Virus record (IMG/VR): IMGVR_UViG_3300017613_001114
Coordinates: 1 to 43,865 of that record
Strand: one strand, 5' to 3'
Origin: a virus
DNA: 43,865 nt
Made by a program: the position numbers and the translations under genes. The notes beneath the pieces were generated by a model. That model had not been told where the DNA came from and did not search any database. It worked only from the letters and a program-made list of their open reading frames with translations. Numbering within the stretch: the stretch's first letter is position 1; every line of letters starts with the position of its first letter. Positions 4,459 to 34,399 of the stretch are shown piece after piece.

Positions 4459-4481
4459 CTATGTTAATTTAATTACCATAG
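4459..4481. repeat. 23-bp palindrome, copy 1
   Basis: Arms CTATGTTAATT and AATTACCATAG around a central T, with one arm mismatch (T versus G at arm position 6). It begins one base after the stop of the SSB-like gene and touches the 5' end of the first tRNA-like element. In the reading direction it is followed by AGGGC. Confidence 0.95.
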
Positions 4482-4549
4482 AGGGCAGTGGCAGTTTCAG
4501 GTGGTGGTTGGTTGGGTTTGCTTAACAGGTTCAATCCCTGGCTGCCCTC
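4482..4549 (+). tRNA. tRNA-like element, probably degenerate
   Basis: AGGGCAG at 4482-4488 pairs perfectly with CTGCCCT at 4542-4548 as an acceptor stem. A T-arm is visible: CAGG, loop TTCAATC, CCTG. Position 8 is T. The D-arm is only weakly formed and I cannot fold a normal five-pair anticodon stem with a seven-base loop in the remaining space. A TGC triplet lies where an anticodon might be. CCA is not encoded. At 68 bases it is short. It may be a decayed tRNA, an unusual tRNA or a tRNA mimic. Confidence 0.35.
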
Positions 4550-4555
4550 TAAAAT

Positions 4556-4713
4556 GGAACGGGTGGCGGAATGGTATACGCCGTGAATCTCGGGAGGGGT
4601 TATGGGTGCTCCTTGAAAGTAACACGGGCTTTCAAAAGCGGTTTCATCATAAGAGGCTGTCAACCGAGAACCGAAGGCCTCTACGTGGGTTCGAATCCCA
4701 CCCCGTTCCACCA
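4556..4713 (+). tRNA. tRNA-like gene with an internal insertion of about 60-70 bases
   Basis: The two ends are clearly tRNA. GGAACGGG at 4556-4563 pairs with CCCGTTCC at 4702-4709, followed by A and an encoded CCA. A D-arm GGCG/CGCC encloses an AATGGTATA loop, and the T-arm is perfect (GTGGG, TTCGAAT, CCCAC). The D-arm resembles tRNA-Leu. However, 158 bases is far more than the ~85 of a class II tRNA. The interior contains hairpins TTGAAAG/CTTTCAA (4613-4635) and AGAGGC/GCCTCT (4654-4681). A pairing of CTCGG (4589-4593) with CCGAG (4664-4668) presents a loop CTGTCAA with GTC in anticodon position. The anticodon and any intron borders are unresolved. Confidence 0.6.
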
Positions 4714-4728
4714 TTTAGGAGACAACTA

Positions 4729-4956
4729 GTGTACAAACCTCGACTAACAGTCCAAATAACTGAACAACAATTCGATGGACTCCGCAAGCACCTCGAGTTC
4801 GGGATGCAGAAGCTTTTGTTCGGAGTAATAATAGATGATCTTCTCGAGCTCTTTGAAAGATATGGACCGGAAAAAGTTATCGGGGCGTTAGTTGAGAAGG
4901 CTATTAGTTTGAAAGACATATCTAAACTGGACTTGAAAAATGGCAACAATAGATGA
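4729..4956 (+). CDS. small helical phage protein of unknown function
   Basis: A 75-residue protein starting at GTG 4729, about 6 bases after AGGAGA. The frame is open further upstream, but that part would run through both tRNA-like elements, so the GTG is preferred. The N-terminus looks like a short strand followed by helices, and the middle (IIDDLLELFERYGPEKVIGALVEKAI) is strongly amphipathic. It resembles small conserved phage proteins found beside replication genes, but I cannot name a family. It overlaps the next gene by 17 bases. Confidence 0.7.
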   Translation: MYKPRLTVQITEQQFDGLRKHLEFGMQKLLFGVIIDDLLELFERYGPEKVIGALVEKAISLKDISKLDLKNGNNR

Positions 4957-5161
4957 CCTAAACACCTCCATCACCGAAATGGAACACGAACGCTTGACTA
5001 AACTCTTTCTCGAAATCCGCTCTTCCCGCCGGATTAAGAAGAAAAAACCTACAACCACGTCTAAAAAACCCAAACCTGAGATGTCCGCAGAAGCACTTGT
5101 ATCTTCAATGTCAAAAGATCAAAAGAGCAAGTTATTGGCTGAGTTAGAAGAAATGTTGTAA
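4940..5161 (+). CDS. small charged protein with shared C-terminal motif
   Basis: A 73-residue protein of unknown function. Residues 30-48 are a Lys/Thr/Pro-rich linker that should be disordered and could bind nucleic acid. The last ~18 residues (Ser-Met-Ser-Lys-Asp-Gln-Lys-x-x-Leu-Leu-x-x-Leu) match the C-terminal pattern of the proteins at 32-322 and 475-807. The shared tail may be a docking helix for a common partner. The ATG lies inside the preceding gene, so translation may be coupled. Confidence 0.7.
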   Translation: MATIDDLNTSITEMEHERLTKLFLEIRSSRRIKKKKPTTTSKKPKPEMSAEALVSSMSKDQKSKLLAELEEML

Positions 5162-5200
5162 TTTGTTGTTTTAATATAACTGGAAAAATCGGAGCAGAAC

Positions 5201-6535
5201 ATGAAACTGGGACTAGTAAAGATTTCGAAAATCGATCTGGGCGACCGCGCGCGTGAAGACTATAAAGACCTTGACTCCCTCGCACAATCTATTAAAGACC
5301 GTGAACTCATTAACCCTATCGCTGTATCTATTCATCCCGTAGTTGAGGACGGTTATCTAATGGCAGCTGGTGGGAGACGTTTGGCTGCTTGTAAACTATT
5401 AGATTGGGAAGAAATACCTTGTCGGATTTATGACCACGTGCTTTCCAACTTGGAACTCTTTTCAATCGAGTTAGAGGAGAACATTAAACGGGAGGATTTA
5501 GAATATCATGAAGAAGTCAAACTTAAGAAGAAGATCCATGAGATACAAGTTGAAATACATGGAGAAAAGACTTCAACAACGCCTGACGCACCTGGAATTT
5601 CTATGCGGGACACCGCGAAGCTACTTGGAATATCTCATGCGAAACTCTCAGACGACATCGCGCTCGCAAGAGCTATGGAAACGTATCCAGAACTACAACT
5701 CGATGATTGTAAGAATCGGCAGGAGGCTATCAAGCTAAAACAAAAAGCTGAAGACGCTGTAGTCAGACAAGTATTGGCTAAAAAAGCTGAAGAAATAATG
5801 GGCAAGGAAGATACGTTTAGGTCACGTCTTTCCGATGCTTATGTTATCAAAGATTTCTTTGAGGGTGTTAAGCAGATACCTGACGGGATTATGGATTTGA
5901 TAGAGATAGACCCACCTTACGCTATTGATCTTGGTAAGGTGAAGAAAGTAAACAAAGACATACGTGTTTCAAACTATGACTATGGGGAGGAAGGTTATGA
6001 AGAAGTTACAGCAGACGGATACCCTGCATTTATGCAAAGGACCTTTCGAGAATGCTATCGTGTTGCGAGTCCAAACTCATGGCTTATCTGCTGGCACGCA
6101 TGGGACTGGGCAGACGACATGTTCGGGTGGCTTATTGAGTCAGGATTCGATTCTATCAGAATACCGGGTGTGTGGCGAAAGAAGACTGGACAGAGTAATA
6201 ACCCGACAATCCGACTCGCCAACTGCAACGAGCCTTTCCTGTATGCCTGGAAAGGAAGCCCCACCCTCGCCCGCCCAGGAATGACCAACGGCTTTGACCA
6301 CGACCCTGTCCCACCACAATACAAGATCCATCCAACCGAACGACCTATTACTTTAATGGACGACATTCTAACTACCTTCGCAATTGAAGGTTCAAGAGTT
6401 CTCGTACCTTTTGCTGGCAGTGGTAACACTATGATCTCCGCCGCTGGTAATAAGATGGTTCCACTTGGGTTTGATATTAGTCAGCAGTTTAAAGACGGTT
6501 ATGTTATACGGGTGAAGGAGATGTTTAGTGGCTAA
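5201..6535 (+). CDS. ParB-domain / DNA N6-adenine methyltransferase fusion
   Basis: A 444-residue two-domain protein. Residues ~1-110 are ParB/Sulfiredoxin-like: an opening DSLAQSIKDRELINPIAV segment, AAGGRRLAA near 55-63 and ENIKREDL near 94. A helix-turn-helix-like SMRDTAKLLGISHAKLSDD follows. The C-terminal half is a methyltransferase with the catalytic DPPY at 237-240 and later FAGSGNT from Phe404, preceded by HPTERP. Catalytic motif before SAM motif is the beta-class order. DPPY points to adenine-N6. Such fusions are known in phages, where they protect phage DNA from host restriction or mark it. No matching restriction enzyme is nearby. ATG follows CGGAG. Confidence 0.88.
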   Translation: MKLGLVKISKIDLGDRAREDYKDLDSLAQSIKDRELINPIAVSIHPVVEDGYLMAAGGRRLAACKLLDWEEIPCRIYDHVLSNLELFSIELEENIKREDLEYHEEVKLKKKIHEIQVEIHGEKTSTTPDAPGISMRDTAKLLGISHAKLSDDIALARAMETYPELQLDDCKNRQEAIKLKQKAEDAVVRQVLAKKAEEIMGKEDTFRSRLSDAYVIKDFFEGVKQIPDGIMDLIEIDPPYAIDLGKVKKVNKDIRVSNYDYGEEGYEEVTADGYPAFMQRTFRECYRVASPNSWLICWHAWDWADDMFGWLIESGFDSIRIPGVWRKKTGQSNNPTIRLANCNEPFLYAWKGSPTLARPGMTNGFDHDPVPPQYKIHPTERPITLMDDILTTFAIEGSRVLVPFAGSGNTMISAAGNKMVPLGFDISQQFKDGYVIRVKEMFSG

Positions 6536-6737
6536 TACAAAGGTAGTAATCTACAAACAAAGAGATAAATACTTCTGGGCTATGCAGACACAAAGGTTCA
6601 GAATGTCAAGCAAACACTCCTACGCCACAAAGGGTGGTTGTAAAAGATCTGTGATCTCATTTATTGAGAAGCATAAGTTTGACTACTGGGGTGTAGATAT
6701 TAAATATAGAGACTTTGATGAAGGAGGAGAAACATGA
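6528..6737 (+). CDS. small basic protein of unknown function
   Basis: A 69-residue Lys/Tyr/Phe-rich protein starting at GTG 6528 inside the end of the methyltransferase gene, with GAAGGAG upstream. The pattern of short strands followed by a helix (YATKGGCKRSVISFIEKH) faintly recalls DUF1508/YegP-like folds, but this is only an impression. It overlaps the next gene by four bases. Confidence 0.65.
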   Translation: MANTKVVIYKQRDKYFWAMQTQRFRMSSKHSYATKGGCKRSVISFIEKHKFDYWGVDIKYRDFDEGGET

Positions 6738-7045
6738 ACACGAAAGATTTTAACAACTTAGTAGTGAAGACACAAGAACAATGTATTAAAGTTCTGCACG
6801 AGAAGGAAAAGCAATACGCTACAAATGATGATCGTCTTATTCAATTTAAAAGGGCTGCTACCTTGCAGGAGATGAGTCATATAGAAGCCCTCGGCGGAAT
6901 GATGGTCAAGCATACCACTAAACTCTACATGATGATAGCTGACTGGGCTAACCCTTCCAATGACTGGGACGAGGTAATCACTGACCACATTAACTATCTT
7001 TATCTTTTGAAAGGGGTTTTGGAAGACTCAAAGGGGAGAAAATGA
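6734..7045 (+). CDS. helical protein, possibly of the DUF1599/Nmad1 type
   Basis: A 103-residue, almost all-helical protein. It contains HEKEKQYATNDDRL near residues 22-35, a LGGMMVKHTTKLYMM helix, and DHINYLYLLKGVL near the end. The combination of an acidic Lys-rich turn and a late Asp-His-Ile-Asn-Tyr helix is reminiscent of DUF1599, called nucleotide modification associated domain 1, and of all-alpha NTP-pyrophosphohydrolases. I cannot confirm either. If correct, it would act on nucleotides, fitting the dCMP deaminase two genes on. Start overlaps the previous stop and follows AAGGAGGAG. Confidence 0.6.
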   Translation: MNTKDFNNLVVKTQEQCIKVLHEKEKQYATNDDRLIQFKRAATLQEMSHIEALGGMMVKHTTKLYMMIADWANPSNDWDEVITDHINYLYLLKGVLEDSKGRK

Positions 7046-7473
7046 TTTACGAAATGGAAGGCGAAAGTCTAGACACAGGTAAAATAAGCGATGGTGTAGG
7101 TGGAACAAAGATTGCATACTGCCGTGAACGTAAGGTTAAGAGAATATATGAACATAGGCTAGTTGCAGAATATTTCAATGAAAGACCTCTAAGGGTTGGT
7201 GAAGTAGTTCATCATATAGATGGTGATAACTCCAATAATGATCCACGCAATCTTATGGTCTTCAGAGACAACGCGGCTCATTTTATGTTCCATGTTAATG
7301 ATAGAGCTGTAAAGGCTTGTGGTCACTTACACTGGAGACACTGTACGTATTGTAAAGAATACGGCGATCCGAAGAATATGGTCAACTCTGGAGAGAAGTT
7401 CCGACACAGAAAGTGTGCCAACGACTACTATAAAAGGAGAAAAGATGGAAAAACAAAAACGGTGGGACGCTAA
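7042..7473 (+). CDS. HNH endonuclease with C-terminal zinc-binding module
   Basis: A 143-residue HNH_3-type nuclease. The core reads EHRLVAEYFNERPL, then GEVVHHIDGDNSNNDP and NLMVF, with the paired His and the Asn of the HNH fold. The C-terminal part has a CTYCKEYGDPKNM module with a later Cys that could bind a second zinc. It is a clear paralogue of the protein at 10500-10913, sharing the HNH core and the Cys module. It overlaps its upstream neighbour by four bases and the deaminase gene by 29, so it is tightly embedded in the operon. It is probably a mobile or formerly mobile gene. Confidence 0.88.
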   Translation: MIYEMEGESLDTGKISDGVGGTKIAYCRERKVKRIYEHRLVAEYFNERPLRVGEVVHHIDGDNSNNDPRNLMVFRDNAAHFMFHVNDRAVKACGHLHWRHCTYCKEYGDPKNMVNSGEKFRHRKCANDYYKRRKDGKTKTVGR

Positions 7474-7966
7474 GTTTCTACGAATATGCAACGAACTCGC
7501 TTCATGGTCTAACTGCATGTCACGTCAGATAGGAGCTATTCTGGTCCGGGATTATACTATCATCGCCACAGGTTACAATGGTCCTCCTCGTAACATTCCG
7601 CATTGTGGACATAACGGTGGCATAAAGAATGTCGAGCTATTTCACGAGGTAAGAAACGCTGATCTACTAGGCGATAAGACTATGTGTCCACGTCAAAGGC
7701 TAGGCTATCCATCTGGTCAAGGATTGCATCTCTGTCCAGCCGCCCATGCAGAAGCAAATTGCATCGCTAATGCTGCCCGGACAGGAGTAGTGACACTTCA
7801 CTCTACTATGTATATGTCTTGTGGCGTACCTTGCAAGGACTGTCTAAAACTAATCATCAACGCAGGCATTGATCAACTGGTCTGCACATCAGAAGAACTT
7901 TACGACCAGCAATCGCAGTTTCTACTTGACAATAGCCCGGTGTCTGTTCGCACCTATGGTAATTAA
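7445..7966 (+). CDS. deoxycytidylate (dCMP) deaminase
   Basis: A 173-residue zinc enzyme converting dCMP to dUMP, the precursor for dTMP. The catalytic set is visible: HAEANC with His101 and Glu103, and PCKDC with Cys130 and Cys133. The N-terminal part (RQIGAILVRDYTIIATGYNG) and the inserted segment with CGHNGG are typical of the phage/bacterial family. The start is ATG 7445, about 6 bases after AAAGGAG and inside the HNH gene. A longer open frame upstream is shadow. The last residues, Tyr-Gly-Asn, and the stop are encoded by the 23-bp palindrome at 7954. No thymidylate synthase is in the window. Confidence 0.9.
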   Translation: MEKQKRWDAKFLRICNELASWSNCMSRQIGAILVRDYTIIATGYNGPPRNIPHCGHNGGIKNVELFHEVRNADLLGDKTMCPRQRLGYPSGQGLHLCPAAHAEANCIANAARTGVVTLHSTMYMSCGVPCKDCLKLIINAGIDQLVCTSEELYDQQSQFLLDNSPVSVRTYGN

Positions 7967-7976
7967 ATTAACATAG
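7954..7976. repeat. 23-bp palindrome, copy 2
   Basis: Arms CTATGGTAATT and AATTAACATAG around a central A. It overlaps the end of the dCMP deaminase gene, whose TAA stop (7964-7966) lies inside it. It is followed directly by AGGAGG, the ribosome site of the 27-residue gene at 7988. Confidence 0.95.
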
Positions 7977-7987
7977 AGGAGGTTAGA

Positions 7988-8071: not shown

Positions 8072-10503
8072 AAGCGCGAACCTATGTTCCTCCATCAGTT
8101 AACACTTCCTTGCCCTACGCTATTATAGGAGAGCAGCCCGGTAAAAGAGAAGTAGCATTGCGTAGAGGTTTTGTAGGACCAGCAGGCAGAGCCCTAGACG
8201 AGTGTCTAATGGTCGCGGGGATACTTAGAGACCAATGCTACTTCTCTAATGTAATCAAGGATTTAGACCGCCCACTGAAACACTACATCGACTTGTCTAA
8301 AAAGGAAGCTGTTTATTCTAAAGAGGGACTACAATATCTTGAACAACTGACGGAAGAACTCGACAAGACTAAGGCAAAGGTTTTTATAGCTGTTGGTGGT
8401 GTAGCGCTGTTTGCTCTGACTGGTCGTAAGGGGATTACCAAATGGAGAGGGTCTGTGATAGAGTGCGCTGGACTACCAGATAGATGGGTAGTTCCAACCT
8501 TTCATACTGCCACTATCATCCCACCGAAGAACCAATATCTAAACAAACTACTAATCCAATTCGATCTCAAGCGTGCAAAGAAGGTAGCGGATGAGGGCTA
8601 CCACCCCTCATCCCGCACGCTTATAACAAGACCTAGCTACCTAGAAATAATGCACGCGCTTGGGACGATAGAAGAAAGAGGATTAAAAGGTGAAACCATT
8701 GACTTCGATATCGAGCTTTACAACGAGGAAGTTTCGTGTATCTCGTTCATGCTGGGAGAAAGGAGAGCAATATCTATACCTTTCGTTGATGGGAAAGGGG
8801 ATTATTTTACAGTGGAACAGGAAGCGGCGGTCTGGCTACGTATCGCTAAGATCTTGGAGAGTAGAAAGATCACCAAGCGAGGTCAGAATATTTCCTTCGA
8901 TTCACATTTTCTTCTCCGTAAGTATGGTATTAAGACACATAACCTTGAGGACACTATGGTCGCCCAGCGCATCATTATGCCGGACTATCCTATTGGGCTG
9001 GACTTTATCACCTCCATATGGACTGACCATCCGTACTACAAGGACGAAGGTAAAAGGTACTTTGGTGGTGGAGGATGGGAAGAGCTCTGGCGATATAACT
9101 GCACTGACTCCCTCATATGTCAAGAGTCGTTTCCTAAACAGTATAGCGAAGTGGTTAAGCAAGGTAATGAGGCTACTTATCGCAGGCAAGCGGATATAAT
9201 AGAACCACTCGTTTATATGCAAGAGCGTGGGATTAAGATAAATGTTGAAGCTATGAGTGAAGAATACGACCGGATGGAGATAGAAATTGACCAGATGAAA
9301 GAAGAACTAAACGCAATGGTCGGGCGTGAGTTAAATCCCAATTCCTTCCCACAAGTATCTCATTACTTCTACATCAACAAAGGACTCACTCCATATAAAC
9401 ACAAAGGCAAAACAACTACTAACGAAAAAGCTATGGTACGCATAGCAAGGAGAGGTTTTGATGAAGCGTGGAAAATCCTTGACATTCGTAGAGCAGTCAA
9501 AAAGCGATCTACTTATCTCAACCCCGCTAAAATAGACAAGGATGGTAGGATAAGATGTTCCTACAACCCTGTTGGTACTAGGTTCAGCCGCATATCTTCT
9601 TCAGAAAACATCTTCGGTACTGGCAACAACCTACAGAACCAGCCTCATGAGGTGTTGGAATACTTCTTAATCGACGATGGTTACATGGGTTATTTCCTTG
9701 ACCTTTCGCAGGCTGAAAACCGGATAGTTGCCTACGAAGGTGGCATACGTAGAATGATGGAAGCCTTTGAGAACAAGGAAGACGTGCACTCGTTGACTGC
9801 CTCCCTTATCAGCGGACTGTCTTATGATGAGGTAAAGCAACAGGACAAGGACAATGTCTTCTGTAATATTGGTAAGGGTGACAAAAGCTGGCGGTTCTAT
9901 GGCAAGAAGTCTAACCACGCATTGAACTACGATGAGGGATACAAGACCTTTTCCCTCGATCTTGAAATCCCGGAACGTGATGGTAGGTTCCTTGTCGACC
10001 GTTACCACCTTGCCTACCCCGGTGTCCGTAATAAGTACCATAAGAAGGTGATAAGATGGATAAGGGAAAGCAGGGCTATAGTAAACCTGATGGGCAGGAA
10101 GACTTTGTTTCTGGGCGAGATCGCGGACAAACTTTACAAAGAAGCATACTCCTGCATCCCTCAAGGGACTGTTGGCGATGTTATCAACGAGCGAGGGCTG
10201 AACTACATCTATTACAACCAGGACTTGTTTGGTCCTGTAGAGCTACTGACGCAAACGCACGACTCTATTGCTTTACAAATTCCGTTATCTATAACCTGGG
10301 AAGAACATGCGTGGATGATAGGGAAGATAAAGGAGGAACTTGAAACACCTCTGACAACTACTGACGGAACAAGCTTTGTCATACCTGTCGACGTACACGT
10401 CGGGCTTTGTTTCTATAAACCTAAATGTGAAGAAATAAAAGGCATTCCAACTGCTGATAAGCTACTTGAAGTCTATAACAAACTAGTCAAGGAGGATTCA
10501 TGA
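8068..10503 (+). CDS. family A DNA polymerase with N-terminal UDG-like domain
   Basis: An 811-residue replicative polymerase. Residues ~15-185 resemble family 4/5 uracil-DNA glycosylases: GEQPGK at 21-26, GFVGPAGRALDE, an Asn-containing FSNVIKD, and FHTA where HPx is usual. The N-terminal CxxC expected for the Fe-S cluster of family 4 enzymes is missing. A 3'-5' exonuclease follows with the DIE motif (Asp214, Glu216) and YNCTDS near 345. The polymerase domain has motif A DLSQAENR from Asp545, motif B Lys residues near 613, and motif C THDS with Asp732. HDS replaces the common HDE. SPO1-like phages have a comparable UDG-PolA fusion. The start overlaps the 27-residue gene. Confidence 0.93.
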   Translation: MKARTYVPPSVNTSLPYAIIGEQPGKREVALRRGFVGPAGRALDECLMVAGILRDQCYFSNVIKDLDRPLKHYIDLSKKEAVYSKEGLQYLEQLTEELDKTKAKVFIAVGGVALFALTGRKGITKWRGSVIECAGLPDRWVVPTFHTATIIPPKNQYLNKLLIQFDLKRAKKVADEGYHPSSRTLITRPSYLEIMHALGTIEERGLKGETIDFDIELYNEEVSCISFMLGERRAISIPFVDGKGDYFTVEQEAAVWLRIAKILESRKITKRGQNISFDSHFLLRKYGIKTHNLEDTMVAQRIIMPDYPIGLDFITSIWTDHPYYKDEGKRYFGGGGWEELWRYNCTDSLICQESFPKQYSEVVKQGNEATYRRQADIIEPLVYMQERGIKINVEAMSEEYDRMEIEIDQMKEELNAMVGRELNPNSFPQVSHYFYINKGLTPYKHKGKTTTNEKAMVRIARRGFDEAWKILDIRRAVKKRSTYLNPAKIDKDGRIRCSYNPVGTRFSRISSSENIFGTGNNLQNQPHEVLEYFLIDDGYMGYFLDLSQAENRIVAYEGGIRRMMEAFENKEDVHSLTASLISGLSYDEVKQQDKDNVFCNIGKGDKSWRFYGKKSNHALNYDEGYKTFSLDLEIPERDGRFLVDRYHLAYPGVRNKYHKKVIRWIRESRAIVNLMGRKTLFLGEIADKLYKEAYSCIPQGTVGDVINERGLNYIYYNQDLFGPVELLTQTHDSIALQIPLSITWEEHAWMIGKIKEELETPLTTTDGTSFVIPVDVHVGLCFYKPKCEEIKGIPTADKLLEVYNKLVKEDS

Positions 10504-10913
10504 GTGGAATATTCATTTGTCATGACGGAGCTATAATGATTCATCTCCCTACCCATCCAAGAGCTGGGAAGAATGGGTATGTATTTGAGCACATATTAGT
10601 AGCTGAAGAGTACAACGAGAGACCTCTAAAAAGAGGCGAGGTAGTTCATCATATAGATGGAGACTCATCTAACAACAATCCTAATAATCTTATGGTGTTC
10701 AAAGATAACGCGACTCATCTATTCTTTCATATAGAAGAGAGGGCTTTTAAAGCCTGTGGCAATAGACACTGGCGACACTGTACATACTGCAAAGAACATG
10801 ATGACCCAAAGAATATGTATAACGCAGGTAACTACTATCAGCATAGGTCCTGTCGTAATGCTTACATGAAAGAATATAGAAAAAAAAGATCATACGCGAA
10901 TGAGACAGCTTAA
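10500..10913 (+). CDS. HNH endonuclease, paralogue of the 7042 gene
   Basis: A 137-residue HNH_3-type nuclease. The core EHILVAEEYNERPL, GEVVHHIDGDSSNNNP, NLMVF and the tail HCTYCKEHDDPKNM closely follow the 7042-7473 protein, so one is a copy of the other. The N-terminal ~30 residues differ. It overlaps the polymerase gene by four bases and the helicase gene by 14. Its place directly after polA is typical of homing-type nucleases, which often interrupt or flank replication genes. Confidence 0.88.
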   Translation: MSGIFICHDGAIMIHLPTHPRAGKNGYVFEHILVAEEYNERPLKRGEVVHHIDGDSSNNNPNNLMVFKDNATHLFFHIEERAFKACGNRHWRHCTYCKEHDDPKNMYNAGNYYQHRSCRNAYMKEYRKKRSYANETA

Positions 10914-12093: not shown

Positions 12094-12097
12094 CCAG

Positions 12098-12120
12098 CTA
12101 TGTTAATTAAATTACCATAG
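12098..12120. repeat. 23-bp palindrome, copy 3
   Basis: Arms CTATGTTAATT and AATTACCATAG around a central A. It lies four bases after the helicase stop and is followed directly by GGGGAATA and the ATG at 12129. Confidence 0.95.
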
Positions 12121-12128
12121 GGGGAATA

Positions 12129-12443
12129 ATGGAAGACGACAAAAGAATAGCTAGCAACCTACATCTCTTCATGTGTACTAAACATCACATACCGAAGGAT
12201 GGAATCTCGACAGACGAAGACTGTTGTTGGTATTTAGAAGAACAACTTCCCAATCGCTGGGAAGAACCTGACCACTCGGAGCATTTAGTCTATGCTAATG
12301 CGCTTATTGAAGTGATGACTGTGGAAGAAGTCGACAAAGCTTTAAATATATTCCGCGAAGCATGTTCGAGGGTTAGCTTCGCATCTAACGCCTATCCGGC
12401 GGCTGTAGATATTTTACGCAGAATGATTGTGAAGGCTATCTAG
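12129..12443 (+). CDS. hypothetical protein at the end of the rightward operon
   Basis: A 104-residue protein that I do not recognise. It is acidic in the first half, with four cysteines and three histidines in ~50 residues (MCTKHHIP, EDCCWYLEEQL) that could bind a metal. The C-terminal half is helical. It is read from a palindrome-associated start (GGGGGAAT before ATG). Its end overlaps the end of the leftward 1112-residue gene by eight bases, so the two transcription directions collide here without a visible terminator. Confidence 0.72.
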   Translation: MEDDKRIASNLHLFMCTKHHIPKDGISTDEDCCWYLEEQLPNRWEEPDHSEHLVYANALIEVMTVEEVDKALNIFREACSRVSFASNAYPAAVDILRRMIVKAI

Positions 12444-15400
12444 ACCTACTCCTAGATCTCCCACCGCGGGTCCTGCCACTACCACCACCCTTTCGTCCTT
12501 TGGTAGGATCAATTCTTGGCAATCCGAACACCTGCCTCCACGGTGAGTCGTAGTACCCTGTTGGATAGTTAGCTTCCGACGCTCGTTTGAACTTACTCAA
12601 CGTACCCCAGTATTTAAAGTGATCCGCCGTACCTCTAATCAAACCTTTATCAGCCGCTCTAGCGTGCCACTGGTCAGTAGGACTTATAGCAAGTTCTGGT
12701 TCTGTAAGTTTGTATCCCGGAAAGTCTTTAGACGCGTGCATGAGATGCCTTACAAACGGTGGATGGAGAAAGAGTTCTAAAATACTAGTATCATTCGCTC
12801 TTGCTATGGTCTCCGCCAATCCTACCGCCACTATATACCTAGTCAACATAGTACCATAATGCGTCCCAAAAGCATCTCTCTGCCCCTTCGCTGCTCTCTC
12901 AATCATCTGCCATTTATACTCCGCAAGTTTAAACGGCGTCAACTGAAACATAGTAGCTGCTCTCGCATACCATCGCTTCTGCCATAGCATCTGATCCCAC
13001 TGTCCGCGGAAGTTGGTATCCAATACAGTTCTCCATATAGCTCTCTGAACCGTTCGCACATCAAGACCTTTCTCCGCTCCAGAAATAACACCTGCTAATA
13101 TAGAAACACCATTATCGAAAGCTTCAATAGCAACAGTAGGTTGGGCTATAAGTTGTTTGAATCTACTAGTCGTTTCCTTCATTGACGGAATCTCATCCAT
13201 CGCCCGGACTATGTCCCTGCCAAACAAATAAGATCTCAACACATCCAGTTCCCTACCCTTCGGAACACCACCCATCTTTTCTTTCAGCACCTGTCCCGGT
13301 ATCTTAAATGTCTTAACCATCGCCTTCACATTAGTTATGGCATCATATCTAGCCATAGTCGCCGGAAGTTTCAATAAATGCTTGAAGCCCACAGACAACG
13401 ACAATCCAATCAACCTCGCATACTCAAACGACACAGCCGCATTAACCCCTTTCTCTAAAATATGCTCAGATCGCTTATACAAATTAGCATCCATCCAATC
13501 CCGCATATAATTACGAACTTTGGGCGGAGCATCAACTTCTATAAATTCCGACCAACGGTTTAGAAAAGGTTGGTACGCTAGCTTTCTATTCAACAACGGT
13601 ATATAAGCATCCATGATACCGTGAGCACTAGGATACCATATCCTACCCTCCGGTAACTGCGACATAAACTTCATAACTGTGGGAGTCTTCTTAAACCTCT
13701 TGAAAAACCTTTCCGCAAACTGAGCATCTTTAGGGTCTTCCATAAGCTTACTCCACAATCTCGTCATATAAGCCCTATCCTTTATAGTCGGGATACCTAC
13801 AGCATCCAAATGCTCTCTTGCCGCTTCCATATAGTTTCTAATCTGCTCAGAAATTCTTATCTCTTCTGCCGACATCTCAATACCCTTAGGCAACGAGTCA
13901 CCAGCGTTTAAAGCTATCCTTACATCAGCGTTGTTCTTGGCAAGGTCATACACAGCCACATCGTAATCCATCATCATAGGTTTGAGCTTCTTATTAGCAG
14001 CTTTAATATCTCCTCTTAAATTCTTCAACTCTTTCTTCAACTGTTCCTTGCGAGGACCTTTAGCTATTCTCCTAACTTTTTCTGTCTTAAGATTTATTCT
14101 TCTATAAACTTCAGATCTTTTATTAAGAACATCTTTATACTTCTCATAAACAGGATTAAGAGCTTCAGAAATCTCTACATCAGTTTCTTTAACACTCTTC
14201 AACAACGACTTCTTCCATCTTCTCTGATTAAACACATTGGTAGCCATGGACATATGACCTTCCATAGCATCTATAACAGGATGATTATCGAGGCTGAAGA
14301 CCCTTCCCAAAACATTACCCGGCGACTCACCTACCCTCCATAGCTTACCCTCTGGTTCTATAAAAGGAATCGACTTCTCATCAATCAAAGGTGTCATCCA
14401 TCTGGGCATTGGATCACCTTTCTTCCATCTAGGAACCATTCTACCAGCAGACTCCATCCACTTAGCAAACCCAGAAGGATCACTATACTTTATCGCGTCA
14501 ATGTTCTCATCAATTTCAGCCGTAGTTACGTCTGTTTTCACCTCAGCCTCTTTGTTAGAAACACTTAAATCTCCCTTCTCTAACCCTTCTGGATACATCT
14601 GACCAACAGCCCTGTCGATCTTTCTGGCTGTAGCGGAATCGTAACCCCCCTTAATCAGATAATCCTTTGTAGATATACCAGCAGTTTTGGCTTCCTTGGC
14701 GATCCGCCGGATTAGTTCGGAACTTTCTTCTGATAGCCCACTAAGATCTACCATCCCTCTCTCATCAGTAATTATATTTCTAATATCAACACCAGCATCC
14801 CAATCTGCTTCTGGCATCTTGGTGAAATCAGGCTTCTCTCTAGGTTCTAACTTCTGCGGTTTCTTCTCCACTCCCCTTAACAACTCGGAAAGTTTATCAA
14901 CTACTTCAGCTGTTCTACTATATGGGTCTATGCTAGCAGTTAACCCTGCCAACTCATCCAACTTCGCCTCAGCATCAATACCTTTCTTAAGCTTCGCAGT
15001 TTCAGTTTTCGGATCAAGCTCCATAACCTCATCCATGATAGCTTCAACTCTATCCATAACATCCATCTCGAACTCAGGACCTTTAGCTTCTTCGGCATAA
15101 TACCCCTCAACAGCCTTCCCAACGTCTTCAACTGGAAGGTCTTCCGGGTATGCTTCTACAGCGACCCGATAATTCTTCCCCATCTTTATAACCTGTGCAT
15201 CAAGCTCAGGGTCTACCTTTCCAGCAAACGCTTTGGCATCAGCATAAGTCATACGCTCGCCGGGTTTGCTTCCTCTCGGATGAACCTCCAGCCCGGCAGC
15301 TTCTGCCGCTTTTTTAGATTTGTAGATCGGAACCTCTGGCTCTTTAGCTCTCAGCTCATCAATAGCCCCAGCGAGCTCGGCTTCACCTTTGGTTCTGAAT

Positions 15401-15774
15401 ACCTCTTCTACTGGTGCCGCTTCTTCTTTGACTTCTTCTTTTGGTGGCTCGGCGTCCACCCTGTCTTTCTCAACGTCGAGTACACGTACCGGTCCAGGCT
15501 CTTCCCCTTCAACCCTTTCTTCCTCCCTTGCCTCCGTAACTTCCTCTCCAGCTCTAGCGGCATCTCCAGTCCCCCTTCTCTCTTTAATATGCTCCACCAC
15601 ATTAGAATGTTCCGCATCTAGTTCACCTATCTCCCTGTCCAGAACATTAATAGTAGCATGCTCCTTGCTAATACCTTGTTCCTCAGCAATGCGGTTGGCT
15701 TCCCTAGTAATCCTACCTCTATCATATCTCGGAATCTTTATCCCATGCAGTTTTAAACACTCAATCAGATTCAT
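12436..15774 (-). CDS. large internal virion / ejection-type protein
   Basis: A 1112-residue protein. The first ~380 residues are low in complexity and very rich in Glu, Lys, Ala and Val, with long predicted coils. The middle (~540-680) is highly basic and helical. The C-terminal third has hydrophobic and aromatic segments like those of large phage internal proteins. The last ~20 residues are a basic Gly/Arg/Ser tail with repeated Arg-Ser. Such proteins are packed in the capsid of short-tailed phages and ejected with DNA. No lytic transglycosylase motif was seen. It is the last leftward gene and is coupled to the 84-residue gene by ATGA. The assignment is from size, composition and position. 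Confidence 0.65.
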   Translation of the reverse strand: MNLIECLKLHGIKIPRYDRGRITREANRIAEEQGISKEHATINVLDREIGELDAEHSNVVEHIKERRGTGDAARAGEEVTEAREEERVEGEEPGPVRVLDVEKDRVDAEPPKEEVKEEAAPVEEVFRTKGEAELAGAIDELRAKEPEVPIYKSKKAAEAAGLEVHPRGSKPGERMTYADAKAFAGKVDPELDAQVIKMGKNYRVAVEAYPEDLPVEDVGKAVEGYYAEEAKGPEFEMDVMDRVEAIMDEVMELDPKTETAKLKKGIDAEAKLDELAGLTASIDPYSRTAEVVDKLSELLRGVEKKPQKLEPREKPDFTKMPEADWDAGVDIRNIITDERGMVDLSGLSEESSELIRRIAKEAKTAGISTKDYLIKGGYDSATARKIDRAVGQMYPEGLEKGDLSVSNKEAEVKTDVTTAEIDENIDAIKYSDPSGFAKWMESAGRMVPRWKKGDPMPRWMTPLIDEKSIPFIEPEGKLWRVGESPGNVLGRVFSLDNHPVIDAMEGHMSMATNVFNQRRWKKSLLKSVKETDVEISEALNPVYEKYKDVLNKRSEVYRRINLKTEKVRRIAKGPRKEQLKKELKNLRGDIKAANKKLKPMMMDYDVAVYDLAKNNADVRIALNAGDSLPKGIEMSAEEIRISEQIRNYMEAAREHLDAVGIPTIKDRAYMTRLWSKLMEDPKDAQFAERFFKRFKKTPTVMKFMSQLPEGRIWYPSAHGIMDAYIPLLNRKLAYQPFLNRWSEFIEVDAPPKVRNYMRDWMDANLYKRSEHILEKGVNAAVSFEYARLIGLSLSVGFKHLLKLPATMARYDAITNVKAMVKTFKIPGQVLKEKMGGVPKGRELDVLRSYLFGRDIVRAMDEIPSMKETTSRFKQLIAQPTVAIEAFDNGVSILAGVISGAEKGLDVRTVQRAIWRTVLDTNFRGQWDQMLWQKRWYARAATMFQLTPFKLAEYKWQMIERAAKGQRDAFGTHYGTMLTRYIVAVGLAETIARANDTSILELFLHPPFVRHLMHASKDFPGYKLTEPELAISPTDQWHARAADKGLIRGTADHFKYWGTLSKFKRASEANYPTGYYDSPWRQVFGLPRIDPTKGRKGGGSGRTRGGRSRSRSR

Positions 15775-16028: not shown

Positions 16029-16051
16029 CTATGGTAATTAAATTAACATAG
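16029..16051. repeat. 23-bp palindrome, copy 4
   Basis: Arms CTATGGTAATT and AATTAACATAG around a central A on the + strand. It separates the leftward genes at 16057-16626 and 15771-16025. Read leftward, its final CATAG is followed by GGT and the ATG, the closest spacing of any copy. Confidence 0.95.
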
Positions 16052-22597: not shown

Positions 22598-22620
22598 CTA
22601 TGTTAATTAAATTACCATAG
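22598..22620. repeat. 23-bp palindrome, copy 5
   Basis: Arms CTATGTTAATT and AATTACCATAG around a central A. It lies one base after the stop of the leftward gene at 22622 and 18 bases before the ATG at 22579. It is the copy with the longest spacer to its start codon. Confidence 0.95.
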
Positions 22621-25503: not shown

Positions 25504-25515
25504 TATATCCTCCTG

Positions 25516-26415: not shown

Positions 26416-26422
26416 ACATCAC

Positions 26423-26445
26423 CTCTGTTAATTTAATTACCATAG
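26423..26445. repeat. 23-bp palindrome, copy 6, with one extra change
   Basis: Left arm CTCTGTTAATT instead of CTATG, right arm AATTACCATAG, central T. Read leftward the change turns ACATAG into ACAGAG, giving AGAGGTGATG just before the ATG at 26415. It starts two bases after the stop of the gene at 26448. Confidence 0.93.
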
Positions 26446-26447
26446 GG

Positions 26448-28302: not shown

Positions 28303-28311
28303 TTAATCACC

Positions 28312-29403: not shown

Positions 29404-29413
29404 TTTATCTACC

Positions 29414-29647: not shown

Positions 29648-30128
29648 CCGTTAGTTTCTCCAGCTCATCAATTAGGAACCTTTTAATAACAGATTCCTTG
29701 ATGTCTATATTATACAAAACAGAGTACCAAATATCTTCTATTTCCGATTGCGTAGACGCAACTACTACATCTCCGGCTCTGACAGGCATATCAAGATCTA
29801 CTACCCCACTCGATTTCTTGACCGCAAACACATGAACGTTGCTAGAACCATCAGATCCTCCAACGTCGAATCTAAACTGGATAGGATCTTTAGACTCATA
29901 CTTTCCAACAGCCACAGCCGCACGCGTTATTTTGCCATTCGCGGGGACAATCTGTTTAAACATAATCCCATTCTCATCCGGCCACTTAACATAACCTTGT
30001 ACTGGTATCGGCGGAATAACGCCAATCACAGTTTTATGTAACTTCCTCTGAAAACGCTGAAGAATCTTCTCGATATGCTCAAGCTTTTCAGAATGATTCT
30101 TCCCCTTAATTTTAAGTTCTTTTCTCAT
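29634..30128 (-). CDS. hypothetical head-tail region protein
   Basis: A 164-residue protein. The ATG at 30128 overlaps the adaptor stop (ATGA) and has GGAG eight bases upstream. A longer open frame upstream lies wholly inside the adaptor gene and is rejected. A basic helical N-terminus is followed by a strand-rich region (TVIGVIPPIPVQGYVKW, AAVAVGKYES, FDVGGSDGSSNVHVFAV) that looks like a small jelly roll, then a helical C-terminus. This pattern resembles a cement or fibre-base domain. No family assigned. Confidence 0.62.
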   Translation of the reverse strand: MRKELKIKGKNHSEKLEHIEKILQRFQRKLHKTVIGVIPPIPVQGYVKWPDENGIMFKQIVPANGKITRAAVAVGKYESKDPIQFRFDVGGSDGSSNVHVFAVKKSSGVVDLDMPVRAGDVVVASTQSEIEDIWYSVLYNIDIKESVIKRFLIDELEKLTDERV

Positions 30129-30847
30129 CCCCACATCTCCTCTAACTCCGCGATCTCCTCCGTAACCCCATCCATGTCTATACCTTCCACATTGGCAGTT
30201 ATAGACCCAAGCCAATCCTTAGCACCTTCAGTATTGCGATATGAAACTTCGAGCATGTAGAGCGCCGCCCAGACAAGGGTCATAGGATGATTTATAGACC
30301 AATAACTTTCTATTGTATTACCAGTAAGTTCAGTAGAATAAAACTTCCCCCAAACTTCCACAACATAAGCCTCATCAATTGGAGGATATATTACTATCCC
30401 ACTATAATCGTCACTATCTGCAAGAATATGATTGAAAAAACTGCCGAGCGAATCGATGTCTGTTTCGTCCAGAGACCGTAGAGATGCAGGTGAGTAATAG
30501 GCTGGCTCGCCCTGGTCAGTAGCCGAAATCAACCCAGAGTAGAATTCACGCAAATCGGACAAGTCAATCTTTTCGAGTTTAAACCTCTCCTCGGAATTAT
30601 TGACCCAGACTTCAGTTATCGCCCGGCAGCGTCTTTGAAAGTCATAGTACCAAGTACCCATTGCCTTTTCATCAAAAACCCGTGCATTTTCTTTTGGGAG
30701 CGGAGCCATCCGGTCGAGGAAGTCTTGTCCTGAATTTATAAAAAAGTCCGCCCCACTGTCCGTGTCGAAGCTATCCGTCGACGTAGTGGCAAGATCATAC
30801 CTGCCACTGATTTCACAGAATTTCTGTCTGATATCTAATAAGTCCAT
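30125..30847 (-). CDS. head-tail adaptor protein
   Basis: A 240-residue helical protein. Its N-terminus (IRQKFCEISGRYDLA, then DFFINSGQDFLDRM) has the signature of phage gp6-like/tail-tubular-A adaptors, where an Ile-Asn-x-Gly-Gln helix follows an Asp-rich loop. A beta-rich insertion and a C-terminal helical part (WAALYMLEVSYRNTEGA) complete the usual layout. It would form the ring joining portal and tail nozzle. The ATG follows GGGGAGGG, directly after a palindrome and a terminator, so it starts a new late module. Confidence 0.75.
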   Translation of the reverse strand: MDLLDIRQKFCEISGRYDLATTSTDSFDTDSGADFFINSGQDFLDRMAPLPKENARVFDEKAMGTWYYDFQRRCRAITEVWVNNSEERFKLEKIDLSDLREFYSGLISATDQGEPAYYSPASLRSLDETDIDSLGSFFNHILADSDDYSGIVIYPPIDEAYVVEVWGKFYSTELTGNTIESYWSINHPMTLVWAALYMLEVSYRNTEGAKDWLGSITANVEGIDMDGVTEEIAELEEMWG

Positions 30848-30857
30848 AATCCCTCCC

Positions 30858-30880
30858 CTATGGTAATTAAATTACCATAG
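30858..30880. repeat. 23-bp palindrome, copy 7, perfectly symmetric
   Basis: Arms CTATGGTAATT and AATTACCATAG around a central A. This is the only copy with no arm mismatch. Read leftward it is followed by GGGAGGG and the adaptor ATG. It lies just after the terminator of the capsid gene. Confidence 0.96.
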
Positions 30881-30913
30881 ATAAAATGAAGTGCGTTGTT
30901 ATTCGGGACGCAC
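30881..30913 (-). terminator. probable intrinsic terminator after the capsid gene
   Basis: Read leftward, GTGCGT and ACGCAC (30908-30913 and 30891-30896) form a 6-bp stem with an 11-base loop, followed by TTCATTTTAT. An alternative stem TTCGGG/CCCGAA overlaps it. The T-run is interrupted, so termination may be partial, which would let some transcripts continue into the adaptor genes. It starts 13 bases after the capsid stop. Confidence 0.6.
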
Positions 30914-30925
30914 CCCCCGAACCTA

Positions 30926-32215
30926 TTAAGGTGTGCCGTTGTCACTCCCAAAGCTATTGAAGTAACCGCACTTAGAGGGATGATGGAATTCTAGACCACA
31001 TTCAGTCAGGTATTCCTCGTCCGTTCCATCGATCCTGCCCCGACCAGTGTTCTTCTTGTCCGGATCTGGATAGAACGTAGTATCCGTGATATAACGGTAT
31101 GTTAAATCTCTAGGCTCAAAGCATACCATCGTATTCCGGTTTGTAACCTCATAGCTAAACAGTGGATGTCGTTTGAGATGGATAACGCCGAAAGGTGTAA
31201 CCCACTCCATTACCCTTATACCATAACTGGTTGTCTTCGGAGTAAACGTGTAGTTACCATACTCCTTAACCAACTTGTTAATTTGAAGGATAACACCACT
31301 TCCACAGAAAGCAAGTCTTTCATCACTACCGTAACGGAACACTTGTTCCAAGTTAAAATCCAACCACTCTTCCCCAGCATCCAACCATGTTACATCGGTG
31401 AAGTCAGTTTGAGTAGCAAAGTCACTCACAATCCCACCATTGGCTACAATGGAAGGAATCAGCCCGGCAGTAGTTCTTTCAGGCTTACCATTAGCCCCGG
31501 TACCCTCAGTAGCTATACCCCACAGATAACCCTTTTCCATTTCGATCGAATGAAGCTCCAAACACTCACGTTTGGCCTTCTTATAAGCATCTCCAGTCCG
31601 TAATCTGGTCAGCCTTGCCGTACGTGTGATTGAAAGCGGAGTACGGAAAATCTGTGTGTAGTTATAGTACTTCGTCGGATCGTAAGCAATCGCTGCTGGC
31701 ATCGGCGCGCCTTCCGGATTGGAGTTACCAATGACCAGAATCCTATCCGCGTCCGAAAGATCATTAGTTGACCCATCATCAGCTTCTAGAAGCTTCACAG
31801 CGATCTGTGAATCAGCACCATTTGAAGTAGTAGAAAGCACTCTACCACGACAATCAACTGCATAGTCGCTGGTATAACGCATAAGTGCTATGTGTCCCTC
31901 ACGGAAGTGATCCATCGTTGCTGCGGCGACTTGGACATAAAGAACATCACCAGCTGCCCCACCAGATGTGTAGGACGTAGCCATCACCGCATCGGTGAAT
32001 ATATCAGTAATCGCACCAGCCTGTGTCGGCAATCCTTGTGTCCACCAATAGTATTCCGGATCATCTACCTTTTCCTCCGAAAGTTTGGACAGAATCGCCG
32101 TAAGCGGAGCGTCCCCATTGGGATAGAGCCATAAGACTCCCTCCCTCCAATTTTTAGGTCTCATATCAGAATCAGACCAGTCTCCAGTACCTCTCATGCC
32201 TAAAAAAGCACTCAT
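30926..32215 (-). CDS. major capsid protein (SU10/DUF5309 type, HK97 fold)
   Basis: A 429-residue protein forming the shell. The N-terminus (FLGMRGTGDWSDSDM, RPKNWREGVLWLYPNGDAPLTAIL) and the centre (FRTPLSITRTARLTRLRTGD, LHSIEMEKGYLWGI) fit the DUF5309 family, whose best-known member is the Escherichia phage SU10 head protein. The last third has FGVIHLKRHPLF and LTYRYITDTTFYPDPDKK. Length is normal for the family. The start has AAGGAGGAATTTGAA before ATG. It is followed by a terminator, as expected for the most abundant late product. Confidence 0.88.
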   Translation of the reverse strand: MSAFLGMRGTGDWSDSDMRPKNWREGVLWLYPNGDAPLTAILSKLSEEKVDDPEYYWWTQGLPTQAGAITDIFTDAVMATSYTSGGAAGDVLYVQVAAATMDHFREGHIALMRYTSDYAVDCRGRVLSTTSNGADSQIAVKLLEADDGSTNDLSDADRILVIGNSNPEGAPMPAAIAYDPTKYYNYTQIFRTPLSITRTARLTRLRTGDAYKKAKRECLELHSIEMEKGYLWGIATEGTGANGKPERTTAGLIPSIVANGGIVSDFATQTDFTDVTWLDAGEEWLDFNLEQVFRYGSDERLAFCGSGVILQINKLVKEYGNYTFTPKTTSYGIRVMEWVTPFGVIHLKRHPLFSYEVTNRNTMVCFEPRDLTYRYITDTTFYPDPDKKNTGRGRIDGTDEEYLTECGLEFHHPSKCGYFNSFGSDNGTP

Positions 32216-32265
32216 TTCAAATTCCTCCTTCGTTCAGCTCAATAGCATGAAACCTTTGGTTAATG

Positions 32266-32829
32266 TTAAGCTGCAACAACTGCAGCGTCGGCTGACAATG
32301 GAATCCAGAAACAATAGAAATCTATGTCTCCGGTAAGTATATCATCTACTGAAACAGTCATGATAATATCTGCGCCGTTGCCGATAAGTACCCACTCATC
32401 AGGCATAGCAGCACCATTATCATCAGGAGCTGTTAGCAAAGTCCAAGCGTCTCCGACATCAAAAGCTGTGCCGTCAATTGCATCTTGAACACATAGAATA
32501 GCAGTAGCACCTGCTATACCTACCTCTGCGGTTGAAGTGCCACTAGTACACGTAACTGCTACGTCTACCGAACCGCAAACCATACACAAAATATCGCCCG
32601 TCACAGTGAAGAGATCTACCGTAGTACCAGACGCTACTAAATCCCCAGTTGACTTCAGCGTAATCTGCTGAGCCCCTCTGGCGATTCCCTTAGTATATCC
32701 CATTAGAGAAACATCAGTATCGATTATACTAACAGCAGCATCCGTCTTATTACCCACAACATCTCTCATCCACCGGTTTGCTGTACCGTCGGCTCCAGGC
32801 CTTCGAAGCCTTTCAATTAATCTGGACAT
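32266..32829 (-). CDS. possible capsid decoration or head-associated protein
   Basis: A 187-residue protein. A basic N-terminus (SRLIERLRRPGADGTANRWMRDVVG) leads into a strand-rich body (QITLKSTGDLVASGTTVDLFTV, CMVCGSVDVAVT) ending in Ala-rich residues. Position directly upstream of the major capsid gene and a small beta-sandwich texture suggest a head decoration protein. There is no family signature. The 50-base gap to the capsid gene holds only its ribosome site. Confidence 0.6.
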   Translation of the reverse strand: MSRLIERLRRPGADGTANRWMRDVVGNKTDAAVSIIDTDVSLMGYTKGIARGAQQITLKSTGDLVASGTTVDLFTVTGDILCMVCGSVDVAVTCTSGTSTAEVGIAGATAILCVQDAIDGTAFDVGDAWTLLTAPDDNGAAMPDEWVLIGNGADIIMTVSVDDILTGDIDFYCFWIPLSADAAVVAA

Positions 32830-32843
32830 TCAAAATCCTCCTT

Positions 32844-33185
32844 TTAAGCTACTTGTTCAAACGGCACGACCCAGTCGATACCAGTACAGTAAAACAGTGC
32901 CGCATCGTCGTTAGCGTCCATAGCGCCGTAAGTCGTGATTTCTGTTTCGGACTCGTAGTCCTTCACGGTTACCTTGTTGGTAACACCATCCGGCGCTTGA
33001 ATCCAATAGAACTTTCCCGTTGCCTCTGCCATAGGCGGAAGAATGATACTCACCGCTGCAGTGGCAGACTTGACGTAGACAATGTGATCTCCAGCAAGTA
33101 AAGTGGCATCTTCATTATCAACCCACTTAATTCCACCTTCTGGTAAGGTTTCGTCAAGACTCCTAGTACGTGCTCTCTGACTCAT
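32844..33185 (-). CDS. small head protein, tandem paralogue B
   Basis: A 113-residue protein starting at ATG 33185 with a strong AGGAGGTG upstream; a longer frame that starts before the site is rejected. It is clearly related to the gene at 33202-33531: both open SQRAR, then Leu-Asp-Glu-Thr-Leu, share AGDH-x-VY, LPPM-x-EA-x-GKFY and close with CTGI-x-WVV. A small beta-sandwich typical of phage decoration or fibre-base proteins is likely. Tandem duplication next to the capsid genes suggests two versions of one surface component. Confidence 0.72.
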   Translation of the reverse strand: MSQRARTRSLDETLPEGGIKWVDNEDATLLAGDHIVYVKSATAAVSIILPPMAEATGKFYWIQAPDGVTNKVTVKDYESETEITTYGAMDANDDAALFYCTGIDWVVPFEQVA

Positions 33186-33201
33186 TTTAAAACACCTCCT
33201 T

Positions 33202-33531
33202 TTAAGTAATACCGTTATATACAACTACCCATGCTATACCCGTACAGAAAAACAAACAGTGATCGTCGTTTGTATCAAAGTCGCCAACTTCGCTAGCTGC
33301 CTCATAAGTATTTACGCTTACGTCTGCAGTACCAGCACTAGGCGCTCTAACAAAATAAAACTTTCCAATCGCCTCAGGCATAGGTGGGAGAGTAACTACT
33401 ACTGCTCCACCAGATGAATCAGCGTAAACAACGTGATCTCCGGCTTGTAGAGTAGTATCTGCACTGATCCACTTTATCCTGTCCTCTACTAAGGTCTCAT
33501 CAAGACCTCTAATTCTTGCCCTCTGACTCAT
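33202..33531 (-). CDS. small head protein, tandem paralogue A
   Basis: A 109-residue protein, paralogous to the neighbour at 32844-33185 over its full length, with the second copy three to four residues longer near its C-terminal third. Strand pattern: AGDHVVYAD, AVVVTLPPM, GKFYFVRAP, then a loop rich in Asp and a closing FFCTGIAWVVV. It lies between the scaffold and capsid genes, with AAGGAGGAAC before ATG. Confidence 0.72.
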   Translation of the reverse strand: MSQRARIRGLDETLVEDRIKWISADTTLQAGDHVVYADSSGGAVVVTLPPMPEAIGKFYFVRAPSAGTADVSVNTYEAASEVGDFDTNDDHCLFFCTGIAWVVVYNGIT

Positions 33532-33545
33532 TTCTTAGTTCCTCC

Positions 33546-34364
33546 TTATATATCGAGTGTATCAGCCACGTCTGCTTCTAACTCACTAAGCTTCGGAGCC
33601 GATGGCTTTTTAGATGGTTTGACAGACTTAACCAGCGCAGGCTTTCTGCGTTTAGCAGGTTTTACAACCCCTTCTTTTATGCCGAGAGTTTCTCTAGTCT
33701 TCACAGCTGATTCCTTGAAAACCTTGTCCAAACTCCATTCCGGATTTTGTGCTTGAATGTCAGTAGCTATAGCACCAACTGTTCCTTTCACATTAGCTAA
33801 GTCCGGATTAGTTTGATAAAACTCCTCAACCGCATCACGCAAGATAGTCTGCTGCTGAATTTGGGTAACGACCAGCTCGGGAATAGCTCTTAAAACATCT
33901 TCTGTCGTGGCTATTCTAGTTCTCTTTTCAACCTCATTGAGAACTTCCTCAAACTTCCTCGGGTCAGAAACGACGTCGTCAATGTCTAGACCGTCGAGAA
34001 ATCCCTTGACTTCCGCAGGAGGTTCGGGTTTAGCCGGAGTTGGAGTTGGAGCAGGAGCAGCTGTAGTTACTGCTTCCAAACGCTCAATTAGTCTGGTTTC
34101 CCGTTCTTTCGACTCTTTTAACTGGTCTTCCAAACTTACTTCTTCCTCAACTTCCTCCTCTACCTCCTCCTCCAGTTCTTCTTCTGCTCCCGCAACGACT
34201 TCTTCAACTTCTTCTGCCTCAGGGATTTCTTCCTCTGCTGCTTCAATACCCGCCTCATCCTCTTGCTCCTCCTCGGTATCATCAACTTCGTCACTTTTAA
34301 TGTCCAAAGAAGGATCGAGATCACTAATCATTTCGTTGATCTCTTCTTCCAATCCGTTTCCCAT
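33546..34364 (-). CDS. scaffolding protein
   Basis: A 272-residue protein with an extremely acidic first ~95 residues (long Glu runs), a coiled-coil segment (LKESKERETRLIERLEAV), an Ala/Pro/Thr linker and a helical C-terminal half with a basic end (KPAKRRKPALVKSVKPSKK). Acidic, helical and flexible with a basic C-terminal capsid-binding end is the usual make-up of scaffolds of HK97-fold phages. It lies between portal and capsid genes, the standard place. GGGGAGG touches the palindrome. No protease motif was seen. Confidence 0.75.
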   Translation of the reverse strand: MGNGLEEEINEMISDLDPSLDIKSDEVDDTEEEQEDEAGIEAAEEEIPEAEEVEEVVAGAEEELEEEVEEEVEEEVSLEDQLKESKERETRLIERLEAVTTAAPAPTPTPAKPEPPAEVKGFLDGLDIDDVVSDPRKFEEVLNEVEKRTRIATTEDVLRAIPELVVTQIQQQTILRDAVEEFYQTNPDLANVKGTVGAIATDIQAQNPEWSLDKVFKESAVKTRETLGIKEGVVKPAKRRKPALVKSVKPSKKPSAPKLSELEADVADTLDI

Positions 34365-34376
34365 GGTTTGCCTCCC

Positions 34377-34399
34377 CTATGGTAATTAAATTAACATAG
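34377..34399. repeat. 23-bp palindrome, copy 8
   Basis: Arms CTATGGTAATT and AATTAACATAG around a central A on the + strand. It starts one base after the stop of the gene at 34401. Read leftward it is followed directly by GGGAGGCAAACC and the scaffold ATG. Confidence 0.95.

Follow-up and report, generated by a model that had tools for sequence, protein, structure and literature searches.

A dispersed 23-bp palindrome at gene junctions in a clade of environmental phages, a candidate genome-wide operator

Introduction

The virus record IMGVR_UViG_3300017613_001114, analysed here over its whole length of 43,865 bases (the window), carries eight dispersed copies of a 23-bp palindrome, each at the junction of two genes. 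What is such a repeat for? An earlier note had suggested an operator for a dimeric phage regulator, a promoter for a single-subunit RNA polymerase, an RNA hairpin or a recombination linker between modules. We weigh these roles, together with a role in genome architecture, against the symmetry, variation and placement of the element in the window and in related phages.

Eight palindromes in the window

The early genes of the window run rightward and encode a DNA ligase, an exonuclease, a Sak4-like ATPase, a ParB-methyltransferase fusion, a dCMP deaminase, a DNA polymerase and a DUF3987/primase protein. The late genes run leftward and include those for the major capsid protein (MCP; 30926–32215, minus strand), which served as anchor for a conserved junction, the portal (34682–36631) and the large terminase (36993–38567), as well as a giant late gene (12436–15774, minus strand), which is 3.3 kb here and holds no internal copy of the palindrome.

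All eight palindromes were re-located, and the coordinates in the earlier note proved exact. Copy 1 (4459–4481) follows the ORF at 4050–4457, and the gene of a candidate binding protein (below) is next downstream; copy 2 (7954–7976) lies at the 3' end of the dCMP deaminase gene, ahead of the DNA polymerase gene; copy 3 (12098–12120) separates the primase-like gene (DUF3987) from the last early gene (12129–12443). Copies 4 (16029–16051) and 5 (22598–22620) fall in the late leftward region and are followed by copy 6 (26423–26445). Copy 7 (30858–30880) stands between the MCP gene and 30125–30847, and copy 8 (34377–34399) between 34401–34682 and 33546–34364. Stop codons lie within the palindrome or 1–5 bases from it (45 bases at copy 7), as had been described. 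No further copy is found anywhere in the window, the last 9.5 kb included, so that its ends are free of copies over about 4.5 and 9.5 kb.

Seven of the eight copies match CTATGKTAATTWAATTAMCATAG exactly; copy 6 has an additional outer mismatch (CTCTG), absent from the earlier note's list. The fixed arm mismatch reported there is also present: in seven copies position 6 is G in one arm and T in the other, while copy 7 is G/G and fully symmetric. Which arm bears the G is unrelated to the direction of transcription. In 100 dinucleotide shuffles of the window there was no match at up to three mismatches, and a chance origin of the palindromes is excluded.

Several neighbouring features deserve mention in their own right. 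Between copy 1 and the candidate binder gene, 4592–4713 (plus strand) resembles the 3' end of a tmRNA or tRNA (GGGTTCGAATCCCACCCCGTTCCACCA); the Rfam tmRNA match is sub-threshold (21.5 bits, E = 7e-7, gathering cut-off 47), ARAGORN calls nothing, and upstream there may be another tRNA-like tail. Three HNH-endonuclease-like genes (3574–4038, 7042–7473 and 10500–10913), conceivably homing endonucleases, occur among the early genes; the Desulfofustis phage introduced below has no such genes at those three places. Two small late genes, 32844–33224 and 33202–33531, are tandem paralogues, possibly for capsid decoration, and adjoin elements in several relatives.

The element in related phages

An exact scan of IMG/VR viral contigs for the 23-mer found just one further contig, because the inner letters differ in relatives; palindromes therefore had to be detected de novo. 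The search for repeated palindromes, made without any preset sequence, covered 80 portal-related and 28 polymerase-related loci. At 27 of these there was a family of at least four 23-bp palindromes, and Markov shuffles yielded no such family. In 17 genomes or large contigs the number of copies ranges from 7 to 20, with 213 in total, and a looser scan of the 55 portal-relatives of at least 9 kb detected the element in 33. The carriers are podovirus-like phages that form one clade and lack integrase, known from IMG/VR contigs, from contigs binned in metagenome-assembled genomes and from Desulfofustis phage LS06-2018-MD01 (OP947158; L006), whose portal and MCP are 44% and 50% identical to those of the window. 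Its element, CTATGTCCCAAnTTGGGACATAG, has the length and ends of the window's palindrome and a different inner arm.

All element genomes keep the 11+1+11 architecture, mostly with CT...AG as the outermost letters. Phages differ from one another in the inner arm, with consensus half-sites including CTATGTTCAAT, CTATGTTACAT, CTATGGAAAAA, CTTCGTTCATT, GATAATTAAAT, GATCGTTAATT and CTCGTTAACAA; within one phage the copies agree, and the two arms shift jointly. No description of the 23-bp palindrome was met in the open-access literature searched, and in the passages searched of the Desulfofustis phage paper the string "palindrom" is used for CRISPR only; as far as this literature goes, the element appears to be undescribed.

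Some records depart from the common pattern. In the related phage L095/L096 the elements end in CCTAGG and symmetry reaches far into the flanks on both sides (about 47 bp), as against the 23-bp limit elsewhere. The element-less relative G015 (record L107) has another repeated palindrome-like sequence near 37237, GGTTTACTCAGTGAACC, at six places compared with five in a shuffle. On the 64-kb contig IMGVR_UViG_3300045977_000067 (L094/L103) there are two distinct DNA polymerase genes of the window-polymerase family; this contig is possibly two phages joined in assembly.

Symmetry and co-divergence

Copies differ from one another by a mean Hamming distance of 3.6 within genomes and 9.7 between genomes. 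The copy at the MCP junction is closer to the other copies of its own genome than to the orthologous copies of relatives in all 12 genomes compared. Such agreement within genomes, together with the joint change of both arms, is as expected if the elements co-diverge with a trans-acting binder.

When oriented by transcription, the upstream and downstream arms agree with the genome consensus equally well (1401 and 1404 of 1628 positions). In the flanks of the 213 copies the symmetry extends weakly outward and there are Shine-Dalgarno purines; no -10/-35 promoter motif occurs at any fixed position. Sigma-70 promoters near elements were also considered, but genes with and without an element differed only marginally (p about 0.02–0.05), which is not convincing. 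Sense-strand mismatches are G:U in 61 cases and A:C in 87; G:U is thus not favoured, and RNA pairing is not the selected property. Equal conservation of the arms, flanks devoid of a promoter motif and the lack of any sign of RNA pairing together argue that the element functions as symmetric double-stranded DNA.

Placement and spacing

The earlier note had looked to relatives for the same junctional placement, and this is what they show: 182 of the 213 copies lie outside ORF interiors (about 32 expected by chance) and 31 inside ORF calls (181 expected at random). The median distances are 4 nt from a stop codon and 14 nt to the start codon that follows. An element stands behind the MCP gene (the MCP|30125 junction) in 12 of 16 genomes. 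The primase|last early gene junction of copy 3 is also occupied in the Desulfofustis phage (at 15470) and the 26448|25516 junction of copy 6 in L006, G004, G005, G009, G013 and G017; these two are kept, as is the MCP junction. Others shift between relatives. The junction of copy 8 is occupied also in G002 and G003. Convergent-gene junctions bear an element in G002, G008, G011, G012, G013, G014 and G017, and where the primase gene lies tail to tail with late genes the element stands between them (all of these except G002).

A junction is nevertheless not the whole rule. Most copies are found at gene junctions or starts, but ten lie in the middle of genes of at least 250 amino acids, nine of them in the single longest gene of the genome (p = 8e-7): in relatives with a longer giant gene, that gene is the holder of the mid-gene copies. 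Spacing is also more even than a random choice of junctions would give in almost every genome (combined p about 1e-16), the coefficient of variation in the window being 0.23 as compared to 0.81. Among small early genes copies are crowded, with gaps below 1.5 kb. Copies within the giant gene and between tail-to-tail genes are unexpected of promoters and fit a block, a boundary or an architecture site.

A stable hairpin (-11.5 kcal/mol; 30901–30922, minus strand) lies between the MCP stop and copy 7, and most relatives have a similar hairpin ahead of the MCP-junction element. Like that of the window, the hairpins of L008, L009, G001, G003, G006, G007, G009, G010 and G012 lack a U-run and lie immediately behind the MCP gene and immediately ahead of the element; their sequence is not conserved. 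A terminator-like hairpin as general companion of the element was rejected, such hairpins being confined to the MCP junction.

A candidate binding protein

The best candidate for the binder is a 75-residue protein encoded at 4729–4956 (plus strand; GTG start, Shine-Dalgarno AGGAG), which co-occurs strictly with the elements. The ORF call at 4501–4956 is wrongly started, the conserved protein beginning at the GTG at 4729. Leaving out the fragments G017 and G025, the family is represented in 20 of 20 element-bearing genomes (16 full genomes and four more records, the elements of one, G021, being weak); the homologue of the Desulfofustis phage is encoded at 9872–10102. Of 10 relatives that lack the element, none has the protein. 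In 7 of 16 genomes the gene follows an element at a distance of no more than 300 nt, compared with 18% of all genes (p = 0.014), and it stands behind an element also in L092, L104 and L095. The co-occurrence could reflect shared ancestry of one clade. A partial Mantel test of protein against motif gave -0.14, the protein tracking the motif no more closely than other core genes do; since no motif-specific signal emerges, we speak of a candidate binder throughout.

The family is highly diverged (23–48% identity) and follows a common pattern, in which a short strand-like segment, RLSIEIT, precedes two helices with an invariant glycine between them. In AlphaFold2 models (pLDDT 83.6; 90.5 for the domain) the N-terminus is extended and helices span residues 12–21 and 26–45; the monomer model has no strand assigned. 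Foldseek returned no significant structural match, and Pfam and PDB searches gave weak ParD matches only (E = 0.05 and 0.99), which agree in direction with the predicted topology. Ribbon-helix-helix proteins (Arc, CopG, ParD, ParG) consist of a strand and two helices, are often autoregulatory and bind palindromic DNA of about 13–23 bp as dimers of dimers. The candidate shares this topology, a strand then two helices in about 45–50 residues, and on the models its fold is predicted to be ribbon-helix-helix-like. We know of no ribbon-helix-helix protein with 7–20 sites over a whole phage genome.

Two other proteins were examined as partners and rejected. The second co-occurring family, that of 475–807, is present also in relatives with no detected element. 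The fusion of a ParB-like N-terminal domain to an N6/N4 DNA methyltransferase (5201–6535) clusters in 20 of 22 compared genomes, including two without elements, VS-ABTNL-3 and the Manatee Spring phage.

Possible functions of the palindromes

Among the suggested roles, an operator for a dimeric regulator is best supported, by the co-diverging symmetric arms, their equal conservation and the co-occurrence of a small candidate DNA-binding protein. The account we favour, while giving it slightly less than an even chance, is that the palindromes are genome-wide, unoriented operators or roadblocks for host RNA polymerase and the site of a phage-encoded protein. This protein, probably the small strand-helix-helix product of 4729–4956, would be made early, bind the palindromes as a symmetric dimer or dimer of dimers and occupy all eight sites (7–20 elsewhere). 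Bound sites would set transcription segments apart by forming a direction-independent block or boundary to the polymerase, also where the early genes meet the late genes tail to tail, and the protein would regulate its own synthesis where an element precedes its gene. A repressive or roadblock role is odd for phages without integrase (PF00589 is absent from the 16 genomes, positive controls having been recovered). Even spacing and copies in the giant gene are the observations that this model explains least well; it does not require them.

Those same observations are what the main rival, a role in genome architecture, accounts for. Here a protein bound at intervals of a few kilobases would serve DNA condensation, segregation, entry, replication or packaging, and copies would lie at junctions for no other reason than that they are badly tolerated within coding sequence. 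The evenness of spacing, the concentration of mid-gene copies in the longest gene and the lack of orientation all speak for it, and some DNA-segregation proteins are of the ribbon-helix-helix type; however, copies crowd among small early genes, the fit between stop and start is very tight, no partition ATPase was recognised and the window's ends are bare. We regard it as possible but doubtful. A broader claim, still tentative and in our judgement rather unlikely, is that a small phage protein on a self-tailored 23-bp palindrome every few kilobases organises the DNA of the lytic genome or cuts transcription into regular domains, the giant-gene copies keeping the interval and the letters being private to each phage lineage.

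The operator reading has also to be set against roles that begin with the transcript. Were the palindromes phage-specific promoters, a phage or phage-modified RNA polymerase would start at the palindrome's end, which suits copies just ahead of the next Shine-Dalgarno with purines following, a copy number and spread resembling those of T7 promoters, and the MCP junction, where a new start after a stable hairpin would be sensible. Yet the element has no direction and no downstream motif beyond those purines, and copies stand between tail-to-tail genes and inside the giant gene. No single-subunit RNA polymerase was recognised among the main window ORFs (the PF00940 search was empty and had no working positive control), no sigma-70 region 4 was found, and matches to the DxDGD polymerase motif were scattered, with no consistent hit in the giant protein or in other large late proteins. 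Promoters, and the single-subunit version in particular, are accordingly weakened to an improbable alternative. RNA hairpins governing processing, stability or translation would suit copies that are transcribed ahead of start codons and the MCP copy, which follows another hairpin, but besides the shortage of G:U pairs, a G/A or T/C position that would stay unpaired is retained in seven of the eight copies of the window, some copies separate convergent genes, and hairpins do not need letters shared genome-wide; the role is largely refuted and we give it almost no credence. Recombination linkers at module borders would account for a common sequence at many borders and for occupied junctions that shift between relatives (L005 and L008 against the window), and leave unexplained the strict symmetry over 23 bp, the inner letters specific to each genome, the even spacing and the copies in the giant gene, which makes them very unlikely.

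Comparison with known systems

The nearest parallel is provided by the stoperators of cluster A mycobacteriophages (L5, TipsytheTRex), of which more than 20 copies in short intergenic gaps are bound by one phage protein (PMC9283540). They are 13-bp, asymmetric and oriented with transcription, and bind a monomeric helix-turn-helix repressor of temperate phages (PMC9283540). Once bound, the repressor halts elongating RNA polymerase. The present element shares the many copies in short intergenic gaps (eight in the window, 7–20 in relatives), whereas it is a 23-bp unoriented palindrome with equally conserved arms, in phages without integrase. Likeliest, in our analysis, is that it works as stoperators do and is not a member of that class.

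The earlier note had likened its placement to the SAS/ESAS elements of cluster K mycobacteriophages, about 10–20 of which lie between genes by start codons in each genome (PMC3203893, PMC12699233). SAS is a 13-bp asymmetric motif, GGGATAGGAGCCC, adjoining the start codon, and ESAS a pair of 17-bp inverted repeats with a variable spacer, its letters varying somewhat by phage (PMC3203893, PMC12699233). The likeness holds for placement but not for sequence or structure: the SAS 13-mer has no match at up to two mismatches, and in place of paired 17-bp repeats there are 11-bp arms about one fixed base, 11+1+11 in all genomes. A third dispersed intergenic phage repeat, SPBRE of the temperate Bacillus prophage SPbeta, differs in being a 15-bp motif of promoter regions, bound by MrpR, a degenerate tyrosine recombinase; it was found in silico decades before this master regulator (PMC10516654).

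Significance

A clade of environmental phages appears to use one undescribed genome-wide element that co-diverges by lineage. If the candidate protein binds it, the two would constitute a compact family of protein-DNA recognition with many natural specificity variants, and a test case for the ways in which virulent phages, with no RNA polymerase of their own, partition or organise the genome. The private letters of each lineage may, in addition, act as barriers to mosaic exchange.
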